Both the position numbers and the translations under genes were made by a program. Of a stretch of DNA of 64,000 nucleotides, positions 31,442 to 43,264 are shown one piece after another; within the stretch, counting starts at the first letter, position 1, and each line of letters begins with the position of its first letter. The notes under the pieces are model-generated. The model was not told where the DNA came from. It saw only the letters and a program-made list of their open reading frames with translations, and did no database searches. Source of the DNA: Thauera humireducens (GTDB taxonomy: Bacteria > Pseudomonadota > Gammaproteobacteria > Burkholderiales > Rhodocyclaceae). The stretch spans positions 3,844,001 to 3,908,000 of the forward strand of contig NZ_CP014646.1 in the NCBI RefSeq assembly GCF_001051995.2, given 5' to 3'.

Positions 31442-32422
31442 TCAGATCACCTTCGCGAGCATCAGGTCGTGCGTCGTCAGGGCGCCTGCGAGGCAACCCT
31501 TCTTGCCGACGACCAGCAACTGGCTGATGCGCATGCGCTCCATCAGCTCGGCGGCCTCGACGGCGAGCGCATCCGGTCCGATCGAGCGCGGGTTGCGGGT
31601 CATCACGTCGGCCAGTCGGGCGCTGCGCACGTCGCAGCCGCGCTCGAGCGCTCGACGCAGGTCGCCGTCGGTGAAGATGCCGATCGGCTTCGCGCCTTCG
31701 TCAGTGATCGCGGTCATGCCCATGCCGCCGGCCGTCATCGCCAGCAGGGCCTCCGTCAGCGGTGCGTCGGGGGCAACGGTCGGTACCGTTCCGGCCGGGC
31801 GCATGACATCGCGGACATGGGTCAGCAGGCGGCGACCGAGTGCGCCCCCGGGGTGTGAGCGGGCAAAGTCGTCGGCGCCGAAGCCGCGCGCGTCCAGCAG
31901 TGCGACGGCGAGCGCATCTCCAAGCGCCAGCGTGGCTGTGGTGCTCGCGGTGGGTGCGAGGTTCAGCGGGCAGGCTTCCTCGGCGACTGCCGCCTCGAGA
32001 TGGACGTCGGCCTGTTGCGCAAGCGGCGACTCGGGGCGGCCGGTGATCGAGATCAGCTTCGCACCCTGCCGCTTCACCAGCGGCACGATGGTCAGGACTT
32101 CCTCGCTGGTGCCGGAGTTCGACAGCGCGATCACGACATCCTCCGGCGTGATCATGCCGAGATCGCCGTGTGCCGCCTCGGCGGCGTGTACGAAATAGGC
32201 CGGCGTGCCCGTACTGGCAAGCGTGGCCGCGAGCTTGCGACCGATGTGGCCCGACTTGCCGATCCCGGTCACGATGACACGGCCGTGGCGCTGCAGGATG
32301 AGTGCGACCGCGCGCTCGAATTCCTCTCCCAGGCGGTCGGCGAGGGCCGATACCGCGGCGGCTTCGATGCGGAGCACGCGGCGTGCAAGGGCGAGGGTCG
32401 GGCTGTCGGCGGTGGAACTCAT
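31442..32422 (-). CDS. kdsD: Arabinose-5-phosphate isomerase (KpsF/GutQ family)
   Basis: A 326-aa enzyme with an N-terminal SIS sugar-isomerase domain (VIVTGIGKSGHIGRKLAATL near residue 48; SNSGTSEEVL near 100) and two CBS domains in the C-terminal half. It makes arabinose 5-phosphate for KDO synthesis. The size equals E. coli KdsD (328). The start MSSTADSP is chosen because the extra upstream frame has no domain character. It begins the operon kdsD-lptC-lptA-hydratase. Confidence 0.93.
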   Translation of the reverse strand: MSSTADSPTLALARRVLRIEAAAVSALADRLGEEFERAVALILQRHGRVIVTGIGKSGHIGRKLAATLASTGTPAYFVHAAEAAHGDLGMITPEDVVIALSNSGTSEEVLTIVPLVKRQGAKLISITGRPESPLAQQADVHLEAAVAEEACPLNLAPTASTTATLALGDALAVALLDARGFGADDFARSHPGGALGRRLLTHVRDVMRPAGTVPTVAPDAPLTEALLAMTAGGMGMTAITDEGAKPIGIFTDGDLRRALERGCDVRSARLADVMTRNPRSIGPDALAVEAAELMERMRISQLLVVGKKGCLAGALTTHDLMLAKVI

Positions 32423-32511
32423 CGAGGTGGTCGAATCCGTGCTGTGAAGGGCTGCATCGGGCGCCAGGAGCGCGCAAGCGGGCGAATGGCGCTCTGCAGC
32501 AATGACTCGCG

Positions 32512-32519
32512 ATTCTATA
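32512..32519 (-). promoter_or_regulatory. Extended -10 element upstream of kdsD
   Basis: On the minus strand TATAGAAT lies about 90 bases before the kdsD start, in a 246-base gap. No good -35 box is visible at the usual spacing, so only the -10 element is claimed. Nothing else recognisable lies in this gap. Confidence 0.4.
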
Positions 32520-32668
32520 CCAGTCGACCGCCGGCCCGCTGTCCGGGAATGTGCCCGACCGTGGTGAATGCCCGCCGTGCTGGCGCAGGCGGGTTGCAAG
32601 CGGATGTCGGGGCGGGACGGCTCGGGCGTGGCAGGGCAGCTTCGAGCGCATGCCCGCGCAAGCGGGCC

Positions 32669-33307
32669 TTACAGGCTGGCACACACCGTGTAGCTTGCCG
32701 CGTCGTCGAGCGGGGCGTCGGCCGAGATGGCGGTGAGCGTGCCGCCCGCGTCGCTGCCGGCGCGCATCGAGCCGGTCGCCGGATCGCCGTCGTCGAGTGC
32801 GATGTCGAGCTGGCGGACCAGCTTGCCAGGGATGCTCGCCGAACAGGTCAGGATGCCGCCACCGATGCCGAGCAGGGTGCCGGCACGCTGCACGCCCAGA
32901 CGGCCGCCGAGTGCGTTGCGCGGAAGGTAGCTCGCGCTGCCGGTGTCGGTGCTGCCGCTGGCGAGGTTGGCCAACCTGACGTGTTGCCAGAAGCGGAAGG
33001 CGTCGCTGTCGGCGGTATCGTTCCAGGCGCCGTCGATGATCCCGTTGCCGTTGCCCAGCGTAGTGCACTCGCTGCCGCCCGGGCACAGGTGAAGGCGCGC
33101 ACGGGCGTCATCGCCGGGCAGTGCCCGGAAGCGGTCCTGGTAGGCGTGGATCAGAGCAGGAATGCTGCGGAAGTCCTGCGCAAGGTTCTTGACCTTGGCG
33201 CTGTCGATCAGCTCCTGTCCCTTGAGTACGCCCCCGAGCAGCAGGCCGACGATGAGCAGCACGACGGCGATTTCGACGAGGGTGAAGCCTTGTTGGCGGA
33301 ATTGCAT
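32669..33307 (-). CDS. Prepilin-like protein with type IV/II cleavage motif (212 aa)
   Basis: A 212-aa pseudopilin. After a short leader the prepilin peptidase site is QQGFTLVEIAVVLLIVGLLLGG, with cleavage after glycine, phenylalanine at +1 and glutamate at +5. Next comes KGQELIDSAKVKNLAQDFRSIPALIHAYQDRFRALPGDDA, a stretch found in a group of betaproteobacterial pilin-like proteins. The C-terminal part has four cysteines. It is the last gene of the nine-gene operon, and its placement suggests it may be the main fibre subunit. No peptidase is encoded nearby, so a chromosomal PilD must process it. Confidence 0.85.
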   Translation of the reverse strand: MQFRQQGFTLVEIAVVLLIVGLLLGGVLKGQELIDSAKVKNLAQDFRSIPALIHAYQDRFRALPGDDARARLHLCPGGSECTTLGNGNGIIDGAWNDTADSDAFRFWQHVRLANLASGSTDTGSASYLPRNALGGRLGVQRAGTLLGIGGGILTCSASIPGKLVRQLDIALDDGDPATGSMRAGSDAGGTLTAISADAPLDDAASYTVCASL

Positions 33308-33339
33308 GGGTGTCTCCTGTGGAGGGTGGAAGGCGGATG

Positions 33340-34044
33340 TCAGAGGCGACCGGCCTGCGCCATGCGTGCGATCAGCAGCGGGCGGCCGATCCAGACGAGG
33401 AGGTCGTCGTAGTCGGGGATGCTTTCGCCAGCCTGATAGGTGGATGAGTAACTGGCGTTGAGTCCGTCGGCGCGGCGATTCGGGCCCGTCGAATAGATGA
33501 TCGCGACCGCCTGCGAGTCGGTGACGGTGATGCGGCTGCCGTCGTGGGCGCGGATCTGCAGGTCGTCGGTCGGGGCGGTCACCGCGCTGATGACGGTGTC
33601 GGCGAAGGCACGGTCGACCCGGTAGTGCCAGTGTCCGCCCCAGTGGTCGCCGGGGCTCCTGCGTGGCAGTCCCCAGGCATCGGTGGCCGACAGCCCGAGG
33701 GTCAGCCACGGCAGCCGACCCTCGCGGGCGGTGTTGCAGGGCGGGCTGTCCTCGATCCCGTAGCCGGGCGCGCCAGGGTCGTCCTCGGTGCTGGGACAGG
33801 GCAGGCGGCCGTGGATGATGGCGAACCCGATGAGCGCCTGCTGGATGTCGCGCAGGCGGTCAACGGTGAGCTGACGGTCGCGAGCCTCGATGCGTGCGCC
33901 TAGCGGCACCATCAGTCCGCCGGCCAGAAGCGACAGGATCACCAGCACGATTGCGAGCTCGGCGAGGGTGAATCCGCCTTGAGCAGGACAGGGCGTGCGG
34001 GCGCGGCGCGTTGGCTGCGGAGGAGGGCTATTCAGGGAATGCAT
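33340..34044 (-). CDS. Pseudopilin with LPCP/LPW module (234 aa)
   Basis: A 234-aa pilin-like protein with a longer leader (about 30 residues, proline- and arginine-rich) before the cleavage site QGGFTLAELAIVLVILSLLAGG. The mature part holds ALIGFAIIHGRLPCPSTEDD and GRLPWLTLGLSATDAWG, a cysteine-containing module also present in the neighbouring 411-aa protein. The start at 34044 overlaps the upstream gene by 13 bases. It is probably a minor pilin of the same machine. The family is seen among betaproteobacterial pilin-like proteins, but its function is not known to me. Confidence 0.82.
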   Translation of the reverse strand: MHSLNSPPPQPTRRARTPCPAQGGFTLAELAIVLVILSLLAGGLMVPLGARIEARDRQLTVDRLRDIQQALIGFAIIHGRLPCPSTEDDPGAPGYGIEDSPPCNTAREGRLPWLTLGLSATDAWGLPRRSPGDHWGGHWHYRVDRAFADTVISAVTAPTDDLQIRAHDGSRITVTDSQAVAIIYSTGPNRRADGLNASYSSTYQAGESIPDYDDLLVWIGRPLLIARMAQAGRL

Positions 34045-35267
34045 CGGACGACGTCCTGGGTGGCGGGCAGGCGGGGATCGATGGTGCGGAACAGGGGCGC
34101 ACCGGCGAATCGGGGAATGCCGCTTGCGTAGTTGTGCGCGTTGTCGCCTTCGAGATACTGCGCGGCGTCCTCGCGTTCGGCAGTGGTCGTGCGCCGCTGG
34201 CGCTCGGGGCCTTCGCGGATGCGTTCGCCACCGAAGAGCAGCGCAGCCCGGCAAAGGTGGAGGGTGTCGCTGTCCGTGTCACGGACCGTCACACAGGGAG
34301 AGCCATCGATGCAGGCAGCGATGCGGAATTGGTCGCGCCAGTTGTCGTGTGCGACTGCATGCTCGCCGGGGAGCGCAAGTACGGTCGCCAGCGGCAGGGG
34401 GCCGGTCGCCACCAGGCCGCCGGCTGCGGCCGTGAGATGGGTGGCGATGAAGTCGGGGCTGGCCAGTGCGGCGTCGAGCGCGGTGGCGGCGCGTGCGCCG
34501 ATCTGCTCGATCCGGTCCGCATGGTCGTGGCGGCGGCGCAAGGCATCATGGATGTCGTCGATGCCGATCCAGGCAAGCACGTCGTTGCCGGCCACGTCTG
34601 CCGTGCCACCCTGGCGGAAGTCGCTCGGAACGACGAGGCTGTTGCCGCCGTCGAGGAAGGCGGGCAGGTCGTCGATCGCCGATGCGCTGCCCGGGCAAGG
34701 TCCCGCGCCGGTGTTGATGCGGATCTGGCCTGTCAGTGCCGCGCCGGGCGCGATGATGACGGCGATTGCGAGGCTGTCCGGCCCGGCCGCCGCTATCTGC
34801 CGCCCGGCACGGTCGAAAAGTCCGAACTGGCCGGGACTGTCCCAGTTCAGTACCAGCGGTTTCGGGTTGTTCTTGACACTGCCGGCGACGGCATACCACA
34901 GGCATTCGTGCCATCCGTCGCGCAGTTCCGGCAGTGCCAGGGTTCGCCATGGCAGGCGGCCAAGGCTCGGGATGCTGCGTGCGCCGCAGGCGCCCAGCGT
35001 GCTCGAGCCGCTGTTGCCCGCATCGGGGCAGGGCAGATGACCATGGCCTTCGCCAGGGTGGCGCTCGGCGTAGCTGATCGCATAGCCGATCAGGGCCTCG
35101 CGTGCTTGAGAGAGTGCTTCGACGCTGCGTGCCTGCGCGCGCGATTCGGCAAGGATGCGCAGTTCGCCCTGTGCGAGCAGGCCGGCGGCCGACAGGAGTG
35201 CGCTCAGGAGCAGGACTGCGAGCAGGCCGTTGCCGGCGACACGATGGCAGGGGCGGCGGGCGCTCAT
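34032..35267 (-). CDS. Large GspK/PilX-like minor pilin candidate (411 aa)
   Basis: A 411-aa protein. A hydrophobic segment after NGLLAVLLLSALLSAAGLLAQ lies close to the N-terminus and lacks the +5 glutamate, as in GspK. A helical part leads to ALIGYAISYAERHPGEGHGHLPCPDAG and LGRLPWRTLALPELRDGW, the same module as in the 234-aa neighbour. The remaining 300 residues include several cysteines and are unlike anything I recognise. By position, size and N-terminus I propose a tip-located, GspK/PilX-class minor pilin. That is inference. The start overlaps the preceding stop by four bases. Confidence 0.72.
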   Translation of the reverse strand: MSARRPCHRVAGNGLLAVLLLSALLSAAGLLAQGELRILAESRAQARSVEALSQAREALIGYAISYAERHPGEGHGHLPCPDAGNSGSSTLGACGARSIPSLGRLPWRTLALPELRDGWHECLWYAVAGSVKNNPKPLVLNWDSPGQFGLFDRAGRQIAAAGPDSLAIAVIIAPGAALTGQIRINTGAGPCPGSASAIDDLPAFLDGGNSLVVPSDFRQGGTADVAGNDVLAWIGIDDIHDALRRRHDHADRIEQIGARAATALDAALASPDFIATHLTAAAGGLVATGPLPLATVLALPGEHAVAHDNWRDQFRIAACIDGSPCVTVRDTDSDTLHLCRAALLFGGERIREGPERQRRTTTAEREDAAQYLEGDNAHNYASGIPRFAGAPLFRTIDPRLPATQDVVRCIP

Positions 35268-35689
35268 CGGAGGGTGTCGCGTTGGCGCTGGACGTGGAGC
35301 CGCGGCAGGCTGCTGTCGGCGGACCGGGCGGACGGCGGCCAGCTGTCGCCGACCTGCAGTCGCAGCTGCGATGCGGGCTGAGGGATGAGCTCGAGCGCCG
35401 GATAGGGCGCGAGCCGAAAGAGCGGAGCCGGTGCGAGCGGTTCGGCATCGAGCCAGATCGTGGCCCGCCCGGTGCTGCTGCGCAGGAGCCCGTCGATGCG
35501 ACGGGACACGGGGGCCGCGTCCGGCTCACCGTGGTCGACGACCGTTTCGCGGGGCTGGTCGAGGGCGTGACGCTCCGCCGGGGTATGGAACAGGCGACCC
35601 AGATCGGCGGCCGCCACGTTCGTCCCCCAGAATGCGAGCAGCAGCGTGAGAGCGCAGACGGAAACGGGACGCGGGCGGACTGTGCTCAT
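35264..35689 (-). CDS. Small periplasmic protein of the pilus/secretion operon
   Basis: A 141-aa protein with a signal peptide (VCALTLLLAFWGTNVAAA). The mature domain begins GRLFHTPAERHALDQPR and ends in a beta-rich stretch LELIPQPASQLRLQVGDSW. Its position after the PilO-like gene is where PilP or MshK sits in related systems. I therefore suggest it bridges the inner-membrane complex and the secretin, without a confident domain match. It overlaps both neighbours by four bases. Confidence 0.65.
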   Translation of the reverse strand: MSTVRPRPVSVCALTLLLAFWGTNVAAADLGRLFHTPAERHALDQPRETVVDHGEPDAAPVSRRIDGLLRSSTGRATIWLDAEPLAPAPLFRLAPYPALELIPQPASQLRLQVGDSWPPSARSADSSLPRLHVQRQRDTLR

Positions 35690-36282
35690 GGCGTCTTGGC
35701 GATAGCAGGCAGGGCGACACTCAGCCAGGAGAGGCGGCAGTCCGCCGTGATGCGGGCCGGCGCCTGGCTGACCACGCGTTCCAGCCTGCAGGCGCGCACG
35801 CGGACATGGGGCGTGGATTCGATGACGTCGAGCAGGCGCGGCAAGTGGCCCTCGTGGCGGAGGGCGAAGCGGGTGGTGGCCTCGCTGTGGAGCAGGAGCG
35901 ATGCGGGCTTGCCGGCCGGCGGTTGTGGAGGCGAGAAGGACGTCGAGAGGATGCGGGCGGGCTTGTTCTCTCTGCCGAGCCGCTCGACGGCTTCCTGCAG
36001 CGCGAGTGACCAGGACTGCGGGCCGGGCGTGCGCGCCAGCGCTTCGAGTGCCTGCCAGTGCTCCGCGGTGCGCCGCGTCGCGTCGGCGCGTGCGGAGATC
36101 GACTGCAGTTCGGCGTCGATCTGCGCATCCGCACGACGAACGCGGTCGAGGGCGGACGCCGCGTCATCGACCCTGGCGATCGAGCCGATCAGCAAGGCTG
36201 CCGCCACGACGAGCCCGCCCACGGCAAGCCCAGGCGCAGCGAATCGCGCAAGCTCGGCCTGGCGTGATTCGGCCGCCTTCAT
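35686..36282 (-). CDS. PilO/GspM/MshJ-like inner-membrane assembly protein
   Basis: A 198-aa protein with one N-terminal membrane helix (GLAVGGLVVAAALLIG), a coiled-coil-like helix (ALDRVRRADAQIDAELQSISARADATRR) and a small C-terminal alpha/beta domain. This is the architecture of PilO, GspM and MshJ. It lies directly after the PilM/PilN-like gene with a four-base overlap. The call rests on topology, size and position rather than on a sequence motif. Confidence 0.65.
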   Translation of the reverse strand: MKAAESRQAELARFAAPGLAVGGLVVAAALLIGSIARVDDAASALDRVRRADAQIDAELQSISARADATRRTAEHWQALEALARTPGPQSWSLALQEAVERLGRENKPARILSTSFSPPQPPAGKPASLLLHSEATTRFALRHEGHLPRLLDVIESTPHVRVRACRLERVVSQAPARITADCRLSWLSVALPAIAKTP

Positions 36283-37655
36283 GGGCGTTCACGGCCAAGC
36301 GTGTCGAGTGCGGTGCGCACGGAGATCACGGATCGTCCATCCGGACGCCCGGACTCGATTTCCAACGGGCCCAGGCGCTCGAGCCGCAGGGCGATCGCTT
36401 CGAGGTCCCGGGGCGCGGCGTGCATGAGCGTCAGCGTGATGAGGGCATCGGGCGCTTCCAGCGCCCACGAGAGCGAATCCAGGCTGGCGGAGGAGCCGTC
36501 CTCGAGGGCGTGGGAGACGTGTTCCAGGAGGGCGAGGGTCGGGACGCGCAGGTGTGCGGACTGCTCGAACTGCTCGACACTTGCCTGGATGAGGTCGGCC
36601 GTGGCGGGCAGCGGGGGAATGGAGGCCTCGATGCGCGCGACCAACGCACGCTTCGCGCTCAGCGAGGCTTCAAGCGCCGTGCGCGCCTGCGTCAATCGTG
36701 AAGCGTTCTGCCAGTTCAGCATCGCCGCCGCCATGCCGGCCACGCAAAGGGCGGCCGAGGCGCCGACAAGCAGGCGCCTCGGTCCTGACATGCACCCCGG
36801 AGGCATGGGCGTCTGCCAGCCCAGTCGGGGCGAGGCCTTATCCAGCCAGTGGAGCAGAAGACGAGTGCAGTCCAGGTCCTGGCCTTCCGTGGCGGCGATG
36901 CCGAGCGAAACGGGATCGAGCCAGTGCAGCTCGAGTCCGTATGCAGCGGCAGACGAGGACGTAAAGAGGGGTGGCAGCACCGCTTCAGGGGCGATGATGC
37001 TGACCAAGGGCTGTGCGGTTCCGCCGACGACCGTGCTTGCGTAGCGTGCGGTGCGTGCGATCTCGAGCAGCCACTCGGCGTTCTGCGCGGCTGCGCCCGA
37101 CGGGTAGTCTTCGACGAGACGGGACAGGCGGGCACGTCCTTCGGCGATCAGCGTCACACGCATGCCGGCCCGGCTGAAGCTGACGAGCAAGCCGTCGGCG
37201 AGCCCGCTGCAGGCGGCCAGCAGTGCGCTCGCCGGGATGGTGCATTCGATGCGGGCGCGCGCCGATTGCAGGGCGTCGATCCAGGGGGCGATCCGCTCCG
37301 GCCGGGTGAGGCCGCTGAAGAGCACGCGTTCGGTAGCGGCACCGCGCTGGCGGGGCTTGTCCGGCAGCGTGTCGGCACGGGCCCAGATCGGTTGAGGAAA
37401 CCATTGCGCAAGCCTGCGGGCGATGAGCGCGCGGCGATCCGCCCCGCGGACCCGTGGCAGGACCTCGGTCTCATGGGCTTCTTCACCGAGATCGACCAGG
37501 ACGCGGAAGTGCGAGCCGCGCGGGCGTGCCGCGACCCAGCGGGCGAAGTCCGTCGTCTGGTGAGGGGCGAAGCACTCCGCGCATTCAGGCCTATGGCTAT
37601 GCATTTGCCATGCCTCGAGGCCGAGTGAATCGATGCGCAGAAGCAGGCGGTTCAT
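36279..37655 (-). CDS. GspL/PilMN-like inner-membrane assembly protein
   Basis: A 458-aa protein. The first 290 residues form a cytoplasmic actin-like region as in PilM, MshI or GspL. A membrane helix follows (RRLLVGASAALCVAGMAAAML, about residues 298-318), then a coiled coil and a periplasmic ferredoxin-like part as in PilN. It thus looks like a PilM-PilN fusion, the layout of GspL. It should connect the ATPase to the PilO-like partner. The evidence is topology and operon position; the sequence is divergent. Confidence 0.68.
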   Translation of the reverse strand: MNRLLLRIDSLGLEAWQMHSHRPECAECFAPHQTTDFARWVAARPRGSHFRVLVDLGEEAHETEVLPRVRGADRRALIARRLAQWFPQPIWARADTLPDKPRQRGAATERVLFSGLTRPERIAPWIDALQSARARIECTIPASALLAACSGLADGLLVSFSRAGMRVTLIAEGRARLSRLVEDYPSGAAAQNAEWLLEIARTARYASTVVGGTAQPLVSIIAPEAVLPPLFTSSSAAAYGLELHWLDPVSLGIAATEGQDLDCTRLLLHWLDKASPRLGWQTPMPPGCMSGPRRLLVGASAALCVAGMAAAMLNWQNASRLTQARTALEASLSAKRALVARIEASIPPLPATADLIQASVEQFEQSAHLRVPTLALLEHVSHALEDGSSASLDSLSWALEAPDALITLTLMHAAPRDLEAIALRLERLGPLEIESGRPDGRSVISVRTALDTLGRERP

Positions 37656-37658
37656 GGG

Positions 37659-38858
37659 TCAGAGCGGAAGGCGGGTGATGAGGCCGTAGATCGGGCCGAG
37701 GATGGCGCTGGCGACCCACAGCAGCAGGGCACCCAGCATGACGGTGAGTCCGGGCTCGATGGCCGCCTGCAGGCGGCCGATGGCGATCTCCACATCGCGC
37801 CGGCACAGCAGGGCGATGTTCTCGAGGGCACGGTCGAGCGCGCCGGTCTGTTCGCCGACCTGGGCCATCCGGGTGAGCAATGCGGGAAAGCGGCTCGCCG
37901 TCTCGAACGCTGCGGAAAGCGGGCGGCCTTGTTCCACCTGCCGCGTTACGTCGTGCAAGGCGGCGCGCAGGGCGAGATTGCCCGTGGTGTCTTGTGAGAT
38001 GCGCAAGGCATCGATCACGGGGACGCCGGCGGCATAGAGACTGGCGAGGGTGCTGGCGAAGCGGGCGAGCCCGATGTCGCGCAGGATGCCGCCGACAAGC
38101 GGTAGCGACAGCAGCAGGCGGTGAGCGTGCACGCGAGCCGGCTCGGAATGGGCGAGTTGCCATTGCAGGGCGGCGGCCAGGCTGCCTGCGCCCAGCAGCA
38201 TCAGCCAGCCATGGCGGGTGACGAGCGCGGACAGGGCAAGCAGCAGTTGCGTCTGCAGCGGCAATTGTTCGCCGCTGCTGCGGAAGAGCTTTTCCATCTC
38301 GGGCACGACCTGAACCAGCGCCACGACGAGCGCGGCCAGAATCAGCGCGGCGACGATCGCCGGGTAGATTGCGACGCGCCTGGCGTGTGCGACGAGTGCC
38401 TCCTCCCGCTCCAGTGCCGCGCCGATTTCGCGGACGGCCTCGCTCAGCCGCCCTGCATGCTCGCCCGCCTTGATCAGCGCGACCAGCGCAGGGGCGAACA
38501 CGCCTTCCTGGCGCGCGATCGCCTCGGACAGGGGGCGTCCGCGCTCGACATCGGCGAGCAGCATGCCGATGAGGGCACGGGTGCGCGCGTGTGTCGTGGC
38601 GTTCCGCATGGCCGTCAGCGCCTCGAAGGGCGGGACGCCTGCGGCGAGGAGTTGTTCGAAGTGGAAGCAGAAATGGATCAGCTCCCGACGCGGTACCTTG
38701 GCGCGCGTCCGCCAGCGTAGACGGACGGGTTCGCCATTGATCAGCACCAGGCCCATCGTCTGCAGGCGCTGTTCGAGATCGAGCAGGTCGGCGGCGTCGA
38801 GTTCGCCCCGCACCCGACGGCCGTCGGCTGCCATGGCGCGATAGCGATGGAGGTTCAT
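37659..38858 (-). CDS. GspF/PilC/MshG-type inner-membrane platform protein
   Basis: A 399-aa T2SSF-family protein with two copies of the domain. The first has FCFHFEQLLAAGVPPFEALTAM near residue 62, and the second FASTLASLYAAGVPVIDALRISQ near 265. Three membrane segments follow the usual pattern. The N-terminal YRAMAADGRRVRGELDA is also typical. It is the platform rotated or pushed by the ATPase. The upstream open frame is arginine-rich shadow sequence, so the ATG overlapping the ATPase stop by four bases is the start. Confidence 0.92.
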   Translation of the reverse strand: MNLHRYRAMAADGRRVRGELDAADLLDLEQRLQTMGLVLINGEPVRLRWRTRAKVPRRELIHFCFHFEQLLAAGVPPFEALTAMRNATTHARTRALIGMLLADVERGRPLSEAIARQEGVFAPALVALIKAGEHAGRLSEAVREIGAALEREEALVAHARRVAIYPAIVAALILAALVVALVQVVPEMEKLFRSSGEQLPLQTQLLLALSALVTRHGWLMLLGAGSLAAALQWQLAHSEPARVHAHRLLLSLPLVGGILRDIGLARFASTLASLYAAGVPVIDALRISQDTTGNLALRAALHDVTRQVEQGRPLSAAFETASRFPALLTRMAQVGEQTGALDRALENIALLCRRDVEIAIGRLQAAIEPGLTVMLGALLLWVASAILGPIYGLITRLPL

Positions 38859-40567
38859 GCGGCGACTCCCCGTTCGTCCGCATGCGCGGCGAGGTCGATG
38901 ACGCGGCTCAGCTCTGCCAGCGAGGTACTGCCGTCGAGCACGCGCCGGATGCCGTCGTCGGCGAGGCTCGCGTGTCCGCCGGCGCGCAGTGCGGCCCGCA
39001 GTCGGCCGAGGCTGGCGCCCTCGTGGATGAGTTCGTCGAGCGCAGGGTCGATCCTGACCAGCTCCATGATCGCCAGACGCCCGCGGTAGCCACGGAAGTC
39101 GCATGCAGGGCAGCCGACGGGATGGAAGATTCGGGGCGGGGTGGCGGGGGACAGCCCAAGCAGCCTGCAGGCGTCCGCGCTTGCCGCAGCCTCGGACCGG
39201 CAGTCGGGGCACAGTCGGCGTACCAGGCGTTGCGCGATGATGCCGGCGAGACTCCCGGCCAGCATGTCCGCACGCAGGCCGATGTCGACAAGCCGCTGCA
39301 GCGTGCCGGCGGCCGAGTTGGCATGCAGGGTCGAGAACACGCGATGCCCCGTGAGCGCGGCGCGCAGTGCCATGCGTGCGGTGTCGGTGTCGCGGATCTC
39401 GCCGATCAGGAGGATGTCGGGATCCTGGCGCAGCAGCGCACGCACGCCGTCGGCGAAGTCCAGGCGCGAGGCCTCGCCGACCGAGGTCTGACGCAGCTGG
39501 GCGAGCGGATATTCCACCGGATCCTCCAGCGTCATGATGTTCACCGCCTCGACGTTCAGGTGATTCAGGATCGAATACAGCGTCGTGGTCTTGCCGCTGC
39601 CGGTGGGGCCGACGACCAGCGTCAGGCCTTCGGGGCGGGCAAGGATGCGGTCGAGGGTCGTGCGTTGGCCGTCGGTCAGACCCAGGGCGTCGAGCGGTAC
39701 GATGCCCTTCTCGCGATCGAGGACGCGCAGCACGATGTTTTCGCCGTGCAGGGTGGGCTGGGTGGCGACACGGAAGTCGATCGGGCGGCCGGCCAGCGTG
39801 ATCGAGATGCGTCCATCCTGAGGGCAGCGTGACTCGGCGATGTCGAGCCCGGCCATTACCTTGAGGCGGACAGCCAGTTCCGGCCAGAACGACTTGTGCA
39901 GTGCGCGCACCTGGCGCAGCGTGCCGTCGACGCGCTGACGGATGCGCAGGAAGCAGGCCTCAGGTTCGAAGTGGAGGTCGGAGGCGCCGCGTGCAGCGGC
40001 GTCTGCAAGCATCGCGTCGACCAGACGCACAATCGAGTTCCCGTCGGTCGTCGCTGCAGGCCCCAGAAGGGCGCTGCGCGCGTCGCGCTGCTCGATCTCG
40101 TGCACGATGTCGTCGATCGTTGCAGGCTGGCCGTAGTGGCGGTCGATCGCACGCGACAGCTCGGCGTCGGCCGCCAGGCGCAGCGCGATTCGAACCTGTG
40201 GCCCAAGCTCGGCGCGCAGCCGATCCTGGGCGACGATGTCGTCCGCGCTGGCCGCGGCGATGGTCAGCGTCTGCGACGCATGGTCATAGTGCAGCGGCAA
40301 CAGGCGATGCCGTTGCGCCAGCGCTCGCGGCACGCGTGCAAGGGCGTCGGGGTCGGCGAGGGTGTCGCCGAGGTCGACGCTCGTGTGCCCGTAGTGCGCA
40401 GCGAGTGCGTCGCGCAGCGCGGTGTCGCTGACGAAGCCGAGTTCGACCAGCAAGCGTCCGAGCGGGCGTTGGCGCCGCTGCTGCTCGTGCAAGGCGATGC
40501 GTAGCTGGTCGTCGCCGATCAGGCGCGCCGCGGTGAGGATCTGGCCAATGAGGACGGGTGCGTTCAT
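38855..40567 (-). CDS. GspE/PilB/MshE-type assembly ATPase
   Basis: A 570-aa hexameric secretion ATPase. An N-terminal MshEN-like domain (GQILTAARLIGDDQLRIAL, GRLLVELGFVSDTALRDAL) precedes the core. Walker A GPTGSGKTTTLYSIL is near residue 319, the Asp box EDPVEYPL near 346, Walker B LLIGEIRDTDTA near 383, and the His box near 410. The zinc site has two CxxC pairs, CPDC and CPAC. All catalytic elements are intact, so the machine should be active. No retraction ATPase (PilT) is present in the operon. Confidence 0.94.
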   Translation of the reverse strand: MNAPVLIGQILTAARLIGDDQLRIALHEQQRRQRPLGRLLVELGFVSDTALRDALAAHYGHTSVDLGDTLADPDALARVPRALAQRHRLLPLHYDHASQTLTIAAASADDIVAQDRLRAELGPQVRIALRLAADAELSRAIDRHYGQPATIDDIVHEIEQRDARSALLGPAATTDGNSIVRLVDAMLADAAARGASDLHFEPEACFLRIRQRVDGTLRQVRALHKSFWPELAVRLKVMAGLDIAESRCPQDGRISITLAGRPIDFRVATQPTLHGENIVLRVLDREKGIVPLDALGLTDGQRTTLDRILARPEGLTLVVGPTGSGKTTTLYSILNHLNVEAVNIMTLEDPVEYPLAQLRQTSVGEASRLDFADGVRALLRQDPDILLIGEIRDTDTARMALRAALTGHRVFSTLHANSAAGTLQRLVDIGLRADMLAGSLAGIIAQRLVRRLCPDCRSEAAASADACRLLGLSPATPPRIFHPVGCPACDFRGYRGRLAIMELVRIDPALDELIHEGASLGRLRAALRAGGHASLADDGIRRVLDGSTSLAELSRVIDLAAHADERGVAA

Positions 40568-42261
40568 GGCTGGCTGGGCAGGACGGGAAGCTCGGGACGT
40601 AGGGGTATGGATGGATGATTGCGCTGGCCAGGCGATGGGGTGCTGACGAGGAAGTCTGCGTCAGGCAGCTGGCCGACATAGGGCGCGTAATCGGCATTGG
40701 TGCTCGGGTCGTCGATCAGCAGTGGGCGCAGGAAGATCAGCAGCTCGGTCCGGCGCGCGGTGTTGTCGCGGCGGGTAAACAGCTCACCCAGCAGCGGGAC
40801 GTCGCCGAGCAGCGGGATTCGGCCGGTGTCGTGATCGACGCGGTCTTCCATGAGCCCCCCGAGCACGGCGATCTGACCGCTGCGAAGGCGCAGCATGGAC
40901 TCGATCTCGCGCGTACGGATCTGCGGCACGCGGTTGGGGATGTTGCGCAGCGAGGGGTTGGGGTCGTCCTTGAAGCCGGCGATGCCGGAGATGGTCGGCC
41001 GGATGTTCAGCGTGATCTCGCCGCCGGCGCTGATCTGCGGTGTCACCGACATGACCATGCCCACCGATACCGATTGCGGTGTCGTGGTCGCGGTGATCTT
41101 CTCGCGCTCGCTGTCGCCATATTCGGTCGTGGAGGCGTCAACGAGGAAGTAAACATATTCCTCGACGACCTTGAGCATCGCCGTCTGGTTGTTGAGTACC
41201 GACAGCCGCGGGCTGGACAGCACCTTGACCGTGCCGAAAGTCTCGAGGAGTTCCACCTTGATGTCGAAGCTGCCGGACAGGTAGCTCAGGGTGGGTGATC
41301 CCGCGGCCGCGCCATCGTTGCTGCCGCGCGGCGCGACATGCCAGCCGGGCAGGCCGAGCCGCGTCCAGTCGATGCCCTGCCGATAGCCGTCTGCCAGCGT
41401 GACCTCGACGATCGTCGCCTCGATCAGCACCTGGCGGCGCGCGGCCGCCTGGACATCGCCAAGAAAGGCGCTCAGCTGTTCGTGCTGGCGTGCGGTCGCG
41501 CGCACCATGACGATCCCGCTGCCCGGGTTGAGCATGATGTCCGGGCAAGTGGCGCTGTCGGCCTTGCACGCGGACGCGCCGCTCGCCGGGTCGGACAGGA
41601 TGGCGCGGATGTTCGACTGCAGCACCTCCCAGAAGTCGTTCGTCGAGCGCGTCTCGATCTGAGTCACGGAGGTGTTGCCGGCGCCGTTCGGGCCGTTGGC
41701 CCCGCTGCTGGCCCCGGTTGCGATCTGCGTGCTGGTGGCGACGGTCCCCCTCATGCTGCGGCTGAGGTTGACGTAGTCGAGCACGTAGCTGCGCAGGAAC
41801 GGGGTGTCCGGTCGCACGCTGAGATGGTCGCCGGCGAGCGTGTAGCGGATCGGAGCCAGTTGGGCGATGCGGGCAAGCAGGCGGTCGAGCGGCTGGTCGA
41901 TAGCGTTGAGCGTGACGCGTCCCTCGAGTCCGGGATGCAGGTCGAGGTTCAGGCGCGCATCGCGGCCGATGGCGAGCAGGAGTTGGGTGACCGGGAGATC
42001 ATGCACCGCGACCGAATAGGTTTCGTCGCGCCGGAGCGGGTGCGCCCGCTGCGGCGCCGCGGGCGGGGTGCTTGCCGGTGCCGGCGGAGCAGCTGGCGAC
42101 GCGGCCGCAGCGTGGGGAGCAGTCTGTGGCGAGAGTGAGTGTCCCGCCGTCAGATGTCCGCCTGGCGTCGGTGCGGGCGGCAGCGTCGTGCAGGCGCCGC
42201 CAGCGAGTCCGACGCAAAGGGCGTACAGGGCGAGTCGAGCGGCGTGCTGGTGTGCGGGCAT
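40564..42261 (-). CDS. MshL/GspD-type outer-membrane secretin
   Basis: A 565-aa secretin lipoprotein. The signal sequence ends in the lipobox LAGGAC (Cys24), followed by an alanine- and proline-rich linker. An STN-like N0 domain (VTQLLLAIGRDARLNLDLHP) and an N1 region come next. The C-terminal pore domain holds VKVLSSPRLSVLNNQTAMLKV and LRSGQIAVLGGLMEDR. It has far fewer N domains than GspD and is closest in layout to MshL. It is the first gene of the operon. The ATG lacks a clear ribosome site and lies ten bases from an AT-rich inverted repeat. Confidence 0.92.
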   Translation of the reverse strand: MPAHQHAARLALYALCVGLAGGACTTLPPAPTPGGHLTAGHSLSPQTAPHAAAASPAAPPAPASTPPAAPQRAHPLRRDETYSVAVHDLPVTQLLLAIGRDARLNLDLHPGLEGRVTLNAIDQPLDRLLARIAQLAPIRYTLAGDHLSVRPDTPFLRSYVLDYVNLSRSMRGTVATSTQIATGASSGANGPNGAGNTSVTQIETRSTNDFWEVLQSNIRAILSDPASGASACKADSATCPDIMLNPGSGIVMVRATARQHEQLSAFLGDVQAAARRQVLIEATIVEVTLADGYRQGIDWTRLGLPGWHVAPRGSNDGAAAGSPTLSYLSGSFDIKVELLETFGTVKVLSSPRLSVLNNQTAMLKVVEEYVYFLVDASTTEYGDSEREKITATTTPQSVSVGMVMSVTPQISAGGEITLNIRPTISGIAGFKDDPNPSLRNIPNRVPQIRTREIESMLRLRSGQIAVLGGLMEDRVDHDTGRIPLLGDVPLLGELFTRRDNTARRTELLIFLRPLLIDDPSTNADYAPYVGQLPDADFLVSTPSPGQRNHPSIPLRPELPVLPSQP

Positions 42262-42307: not shown

Positions 42308-42445
42308 AGTTGCGCGTCGGTCTGTCGGGCGATGCGATGTGAGTGCTTCCGTGCAATAGTTGGCTGTTGCGTTGCAGCACCGCGCCGGGAGCGATCTTTC
42401 TCCTCTGTTAGAATGCGCGGTTCGAATCCAGCTGCAGGGCCTCTT

Positions 42446-43264
42446 GTGATCACAGCCGAGCACGGCGCTCCCCTCGTTTCCCTTCGCGACGTCCGCTTCG
42501 CCTACGGTGAGCGGTCGGTGCTGCGTGGTATCGACCTGAGCGTGCATCGTGGCCAGGTCGTGGCGATCATGGGCGGCAGCGGTTGTGGCAAGACCACGCT
42601 GCTGCGCCTGATTGGCGGGCAGCTCAAGGCGAGCTCGGGTGTGGTCGAGGTCGATGGGCGCGACGTGGGCAAGATGGGGCGTTCCGACCTCTACGCAATG
42701 CGTCGCCGGATGGGCATGCTGTTTCAGTTCGGTGCGCTATTCACCGACATCAGTGTGTTCGACAACGTGGCCTTTCCGTTGCGTGAGCACACCAACCTGC
42801 CGCCGTCGATGATCTCCGACCTGGTGTTGATGAAGCTGCAGGCGGTGGGTTTGCGCGGCGCGGCCTCGTTGCGCCCGGGTGAGCTGTCGGGCGGCATGGC
42901 GCGTCGGGTCGCGCTTGCCCGTGCGGTGGCGCTGGACCCGATGCTGATCCTCTACGACGAGCCCTTTGCCGGGCTGGACCCCATTTCGCTCGGTATCGTC
43001 GGGCAGTTGATCCGGCGCCTGAACGACGCGCTTGGCGCCAGTTCGGTCATGGTCACGCACGACGTGCATGAGTCGCTCGAGATCGTGGACTACATCTACT
43101 TCGTTTCCGAGGGGCGCATCGTCGCGCAGGGTACGCCCGACGAGATCCGGGCCTCGTCCGATCCCTTCGTACATCAGTTCGTCAATGCGGAGGCCGATGG
43201 ACCCGTGCCTTTCCATTACCCGGCGCCGCCGATCGACAGTCTGCTGCAGGGAGTGCGTCCATGA
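42446..43264 (+). CDS. mlaF: Phospholipid ABC transporter ATP-binding protein MlaF
   Basis: A 272-aa ATPase of the Mla system, which keeps outer-membrane lipid asymmetry. Walker A GGSGCGKTT is near residue 43, the signature ELSGGMARRVALARA near 146, Walker B ILYDEPFAGLDP near 167. The GTG start is chosen because the domain begins soon after (VSLRDVRFAYGERSVLRGIDL); in-frame ATG codons further upstream lie in non-coding-looking sequence. It overlaps mlaE by four bases. Confidence 0.94.
   Translation: MITAEHGAPLVSLRDVRFAYGERSVLRGIDLSVHRGQVVAIMGGSGCGKTTLLRLIGGQLKASSGVVEVDGRDVGKMGRSDLYAMRRRMGMLFQFGALFTDISVFDNVAFPLREHTNLPPSMISDLVLMKLQAVGLRGAASLRPGELSGGMARRVALARAVALDPMLILYDEPFAGLDPISLGIVGQLIRRLNDALGASSVMVTHDVHESLEIVDYIYFVSEGRIVAQGTPDEIRASSDPFVHQFVNAEADGPVPFHYPAPPIDSLLQGVRP

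Follow-up and report, generated by a model that had tools for sequence, protein, structure and literature searches.

The nine genes that fill the minus strand between positions 32669 and 42261 of the window (here, the whole 64,000-nucleotide stretch of Thauera humireducens DNA that was analysed) raise the question of which machine they encode. They were delimited by ORF inspection together with profiles and are named O1–O9 (Table 1). An earlier note had described a nine-gene secretin/ATPase/pseudopilin locus, unlike a full T2SS or type IV pilus, and had taken it for a minimal MSHA-like system; the locus itself is borne out, with coordinates and profiles in agreement. The reading that we prefer, with a probability of roughly 60%, is that the operon encodes a type IV filament machine, inherited vertically, whose lineage is distinct from MSHA and probably its sister.

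Table 1. Genes of the operon, with positions in the window and assignments
Gene	Position	Strand	Length (aa)	Product	Evidence or assigned role
O1	40564..42261	-	565	MshL-related secretin	Pfam Secretin 138 bits
O2	38855..40567	-	570	Assembly ATPase with altered MshEN (c-di-GMP type) domain	T2SSE 407 bits, MshEN 57 bits
O3	37659..38858	-	399	Inner-membrane platform	T2SSF 153 bits
O4	36279..37655	-	458	GspL / fused PilM-PilN-like	Weak assignment; conserved place between platform and O5
O5	35686..36282	-	198	PilO/GspM-like	Weak assignment; place conserved
O6	35264..35689	-	141	Small periplasmic protein, possibly MshK/PilP-like	Weak assignment
O7	34032..35267	-	411	Large pilin-like protein without Glu5	Probable tip subunit
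O8	33340..34044	-	234	Prepilin with Glu5	N_methyl 27.3 bits; probable minor pilin
O9	32669..33307	-	212	Prepilin with Glu5, short leader	N_methyl; probable major pilin

All nine frames are intact and under purifying selection. Compared with Thauera propionica (L016), dN/dS was 0.13, 0.11, 0.22, 0.42, 0.43, 0.34, 0.23, 0.21, and 0.08 for O1 to O9, respectively. The genes had been said to be joined nearly throughout by four-base overlaps, which was found at only five of the eight junctions; O3/O4 and O8/O9 are separated by gaps of 3 and 32 nt, and O7/O8 overlap by 13 nt, given the start adopted for O8. On one side of the operon lies a kdsD-like gene with SIS and CBS domains, on the other an ABC transporter operon of mla type (window 31442–32599 and 42332–43264). 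Both neighbour types are kept in two related loci (L028 and L062), with a KefB-like transporter in addition (names given by eye except for Pfam matches).

The export core of the machine was readily recognized. MshL (TIGR02519) was the best secretin profile for O1, in keeping with the MshL-like secretin of the earlier note, though its score of 233.8 bits lies below the MshL cut-off of 250.2; GspD scored 154.6 bits and the type IVB secretin profile 64 bits (cut-off 288). A lipobox pattern was identified in 40 of 49 secretins of the lineage (start codons being picked to fit), with the GGAC of O1 outside these 40. O1 is possibly a lipoprotein via Cys24, and the pilotin listed as missing in the earlier note may be accounted for by a secretin lineage that looks lipoprotein-like (lipobox-type Cys). 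The MshE/GspE-type ATPase and the GspF-type platform were likewise confirmed, O2 having T2SSE and MshEN domains and O3 matching T2SSF, with GspF as its best family (267.8 bits, under the cut-off of 424). In the MshEN domain of O2 the hydrophobic core is mostly kept, while the stacking Arg/Lys and one Gln, which are kept in 13/13 canonical MSHA rows, are mostly lost; control of O2 by c-di-GMP may be weaker. The MSHA pili of Vibrio cholerae are described in one report (PMC7096442) as retractable and controlled by c-di-GMP, and PilT is reported in another (PMC9815625) to promote both extension and retraction of these pili.

The assignment of O4 and O5 as PilMN-like and PilO-like proteins fits their topology and conserved place; the profile scores are weak and below cut-offs. 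No family was found for O4 or O6 at E 0.1 in profile searches, which also detected no GspC among the nine proteins. When compared with five MSHA profiles, O4 was closest to MshI2 (46% probability), O5 also to MshI2 (28%) and not to MshJ, and O6 to MshK (5%). O5 gave weak matches only, the best being to NCBIfam GspM at 16.2 bits (cut-off 60), and O6 has a signal-peptide-like start by eye. The likeness of O4–O6 to MSHA parts, as read from these sequences, is weak.

A prepilin motif with Glu5 was found in O8 and O9 but not in O7, the third pilin-like protein. The O9 leader has seven residues (MQFRQQG) before the mature F. With Foldseek, ranks 1–15 for the O9 model were all type IVb pilins, a single one at E < 0.001, and its VIA scores were modest, with Clostridioides difficile PilA1 (7.2) tied to within 1. 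O9 is likely the major subunit by its predicted major-pilin fold, so that the major pseudopilin thought to be missing is probably present within the locus. O7 was modelled by AlphaFold with a mean pLDDT of 90.7 and N-terminal helices at residues 13–32 and 35–69; no solved fold was matched by Foldseek, and profile searches gave a Wzy_C match only, far below cut-off. Eight Cys residues of O7 are invariant across 15 aligned rows, two of which are invariant and four nearly so in 44 rows. Its length is 385–426 residues in the 40 loci of the reduced clade described below and 268–1180 in the other 40, some of these being cut by contig ends; no Pfam domain was found in ten large relatives. O7 is a probable tip subunit.

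The genome consists of one contig (C1) of 4.17 Mb, in which four secretins, eight ATPases above the T2SSE cut-off and one Peptidase_A24 gene were identified. By neighbours, size and trees, three sets of genes were assigned to other machines, namely type IVa pili (PilB at 2310052, PilD at 2312868, secretin at 3782984, and PilT/PilU-size genes at 2724034 and 2725453), a T2SS (714837 and 716531) and a Tad-like system (2285642 and 2286899). As these are all located elsewhere, the operon constitutes a fourth machine. It does lack a prepilin peptidase, PilT and GspC, as had been noted, but most of the parts regarded as missing are accounted for elsewhere or within the locus. The sole Peptidase_A24 (PilD) gene, at C1:2312868, must serve all its users in the genome, and the two PilT/PilU-size ATPase genes lie outside the operon. 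Ten N_methyl matches were obtained in the genome, which leave no MSHA pilin set, with the reservation that this profile misses pilins without Glu5. The strongest of them is in a 75-residue frame (C1:2742625–2742702; L173) that belongs to none of the four systems' regions and may be a piece of a pilin. By eye, a PilE/FimT/PilV/PilW/PilX cluster followed by a 1404-residue PilY1-like protein is present at C1:819100–826700 (L172). An isolated ATPase of 815 residues, combining GAF, MshEN and T2SSE domains, was also observed about 5 kb past the right end of the window (C1:3913167–3914405; L004/L170); T2SSE frames of 797 and 807 aa in one other genome (G270) and of 1042 aa in another (G364) may be its kin.

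The trees place the operon outside both T2SS and type IVa pili, in line with the claim that it is unlike a full T2SS or type IV pilus; T2SS rows were labelled by size and likeness and type IVb rows were left out. The lineage forms a clade of its own in the platform tree (22 of 58 rows, 100/100), in the ATPase tree (21 of 54 rows, 100/100) and, for the C-terminus of the secretin, in a quickly built tree (21 of 45 rows, support 98, with one type IVa row). Canonical MSHA-type rows form a separate clade of 15, 15, and 14 rows in the platform, ATPase and secretin trees (100/100, 100/100, and 99, respectively). A sister position to MSHA has a branch support of 89 in the secretin tree and is not rejected for the platform (p-AU 0.178) or the ATPase (p-AU 0.312); in the free platform and ATPase trees the lineage is not next to MSHA, and these motor trees both flag odd composition in the window and several relatives, with a long-branch warning for the ATPase. 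The structure of the locus and its separation from MSHA are well supported, and sisterhood moderately so. Two genomes (G270 and G364) hold both the operon type (L165 and L164) and MSHA-clade ATPase/platform pairs (L190 and L189). Two loci found by the MshL profile (L146 and L160) join neither clade firmly; in the platform tree they lie apart from canonical MSHA and beside the operon lineage, with support of 28/9 on long branches. No published description of the lineage was found in literature searches.

To follow the operon across genomes, O7 served as a marker; it gave 142 relatives on genome contigs, and the 80 best loci were retained and scanned with profiles made from all nine proteins. 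The complete nine-gene set in the same order was present in 34 of these 80 loci; L079 has two O9 genes, and L086 has O9 on the opposite strand. This conserved order, together with dN/dS values of 0.08–0.43, indicates that the locus is more than a chance assembly. Incomplete loci were often, but not always, cut by contig ends. O5 was undetected in L022, L023, L026, L027, L030, L033, L037, and L039, as was O6 in all of these except L026; O6 was also undetected in L055 and L077. O1 was undetected in L038, L040, and L043, and both O1 and O2 in L048 and L051, despite kilobases of upstream DNA. Relatives of Thiotrichaceae type carry partial sets only (O3–O8 in L076, O5–O8 in L081), and O7 and O8 occur alone in L074, L078, L092, and L095, with about 4–10 kb available upstream. 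Five loci of Thiotrichaceae type or from other gammaproteobacteria (L074, L076, L078, L083, and L084) have two to three O8-type pilins after O7; O9 is absent from the stretch fetched for them, and they are mostly without a nearby secretin or ATPase. In L087 (14617–16359) and L088 (14258–17465), O8 and O9 are separated by a protein carrying an ATPase domain of histidine-kinase type, accompanied in L088 by a protein with a guanylate/adenylate cyclase domain; L068 has nearby a response regulator whose HTH is of Fis type. Taking an O7 match as a marker and not as proof of a whole operon, since weak matches may be O8-type pilins, such a match at E 1e-3 was given by 121 of 150 genomes of the family, 93 of which reached E 1e-25 or better; for the order, 123 of the 300 sampled genomes matched at E 1e-20.

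Wider relatives carry two further genes, one upstream of O1 (M; AAA_22 and SPOR domains in the single example scanned, L062) and one between O1 and O2 (N; TPRs in L068), which in profile comparison match MshM (probability 100) and MshN (99.96), respectively; these matches, too, favour a sister position to MSHA. O1 and O2 are both present in 49 loci, of which 28 have a gap of 48–277 nt and no N, and 21 have N within a gap of 898–1804 nt. M is present in none of the 28 reduced loci (in 25 of them the sequence upstream of O1 extends for 1.4 kb or more), compared with 16 of the 21 N-bearing loci. The 28 belong to Thauera, Azoarcus, Parazoarcus or unnamed betaproteobacteria, names that occur in none of the 21. 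In the ATPase tree, the seven reduced rows group together (100/99) inside the full ones, which fits a single loss. The MshM-like and MshN-like helpers are absent from the loci of the Thauera/Azoarcus clade, which has lost them. The locus is therefore reduced and not primitively minimal, so that of the proposed minimal MSHA-like system the likeness to MSHA stands and the minimality does not. No orthologue of either helper was detected in the genome itself, the best match to M being the ATPase of an XrtA/PEP-CTERM system (429.7 bits, cut-off 324.5) and the best match to N a glycosyltransferase with TPRs. The second match to M, a 463-residue ExeA-type ATPase assigned to no named family (C1:1471248–1471925; L178), scored 111.6 bits, and 74 bits against the XrtA-ATPase model (cut-off 324.5); with such a score, it could do the job of M in trans.

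We infer a filament, most likely a thin pilus at the surface, with O7 at its tip, a lipidated secretin and a role in attachment, the folds of O7 and O9 being predicted ones. The single PilD would trim O9 and O8, and probably O7 as well, of their leaders. O7, lacking E5, and O8 would initiate the filament and end at its tip, while O2 and O3, working at the inner membrane, would supply it with O9 subunits. O4, O5, and O6 would connect the platform with the secretin, and the filament would exit through O1; being possibly a lipoprotein itself, O1 may get to the outer membrane unaided. The resulting fibre would most likely serve surface attachment via the tip protein, in the Thauera/Azoarcus clade after loss of the MshM-like (AAA and SPOR) and MshN-like (TPR) helpers.

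A different use of the same parts would be secretion of T2SS type, with a short O9 pseudopilus in the periplasm and export of a cargo whose gene is unlinked. The GspL/GspM-like topology with its weak GspM match, the absence of a retraction ATPase from the operon, the below-cut-off GspF match of O3 and the presence of an E5-less subunit, as at T2SS tips according to PMC10191384, argue in this direction; we consider it unlikely, and the differences from T2SS are given below. Ranked beneath it, and also improbable, is a dual-use pilus of toxin-coregulated type, whose filament would in addition export either a soluble protein or the large protein of its tip. The predicted O9 fold, nearest by Foldseek to type IVb major pilins, and the single large tip-type pilin, very variable in size among relatives, are consistent with this, but no obvious cargo gene adjoins the system in the 11 loci listed and the ten large O7 relatives showed no Pfam domain.

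That the operon is a canonical MSHA pilus with the remaining msh genes elsewhere in the genome appears very improbable. It would agree with MshL as best secretin profile and with the prepilin peptidase and PilT-size genes found elsewhere, but MSHA rows cluster without the operon in three trees, no M or N orthologue was found in the genome and its ten N_methyl matches leave no MSHA pilin set. In addition, when 58 prepilin frames taken from 13 loci of canonical MSHA type (L147–L159) were compared with the nine proteins, the best scores were 14.4 bits (O9) and 13.7 bits (O8), and no match to O8 or O9 persisted once the shared helix was removed, so that there is no pilin kinship past this helix. 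Full MSHA orthologues with the missing genes elsewhere, the outcome named in the earlier note as speaking against its proposal, are contradicted by the trees, the pilins and the search for M and N. Least credible of all is a degenerate relic on its way out; two helper genes are absent and the c-di-GMP motif is altered, but the nine frames are open, dN/dS is 0.08–0.43 and the same reduced set recurs in 28 loci.

Extending the preferred reading of a separate filament lineage, it is possible, at somewhat less than even odds, that the operon represents one more major type among bacterial type IV pili, a sister of MSHA that is common in Burkholderiales and has full sets also in Methylococcaceae; the tied fold match, the partial sets of Thiotrichaceae relatives and trees without type IVb rows lower these odds. 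Such a type would combine an MSHA-like export core with a major pilin of predicted fold nearest type IVb and a type IVa-like leader, and with a tip pilin varying up to about threefold in size, and its Thauera/Azoarcus branch would manage without MshM-like and MshN-like factors of its own. If the lineage is a separate sister, it would provide an unexamined surface fibre for many denitrifying, wastewater and iron-oxidising bacteria (by locus names). The full and reduced loci, with and without M and N, offer a natural contrast on the role of these factors in secretin assembly, which also bears on secretin insertion without them.

When compared with known systems, the operon resembles MSHA in its MshL-type secretin, MshEN ATPase, platform, a trio in the I-J-K place and, in wider relatives, MshM and MshN. 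It also resembles MSHA in having no prepilin peptidase gene, a gene which all MSH loci lack according to Denise et al. (2019; PMC6668835). It differs in forming its own platform, ATPase and secretin clade and in being without MshM and MshN. The MSH model of that article has five mandatory genes and a quorum of three mandatory and four in all; homologues of mshL, mshE and mshG are present in the operon, the latter two outside the MSHA clade, and neither mshM nor mshA is, an absence that the quorum tolerates. With so low a quorum, its programme might still call the locus MSH. Acquisition of MshN, a trait of MSHA according to Pelicic (2023; PMC10191384), was seen neither in the window nor in any of the 28 reduced loci. 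With type IVa pili the operon shares a PilB/PilC-type motor and platform and the use of PilD, but it belongs to its own clade, has no PilT or PilY1 and stands beside a separate type IVa set in the genome. T2SS pseudopilins number five; the operon has three pilins, no GspC and its own clade, with a T2SS-type set elsewhere in the genome, and its likeness to T2SS lies in the secretin, the GspE/F-like motor, the GspL/M-like topology and the E5-less subunit. Compared with type IVb pili (ETEC pilus 9iuf, TCP and CofA type), which have a long leader, that of O9 is short and the type IVB secretin score is weak, but the predicted O9 fold has its top Foldseek ranks among them, and in both the pilins are few, with one of them large.
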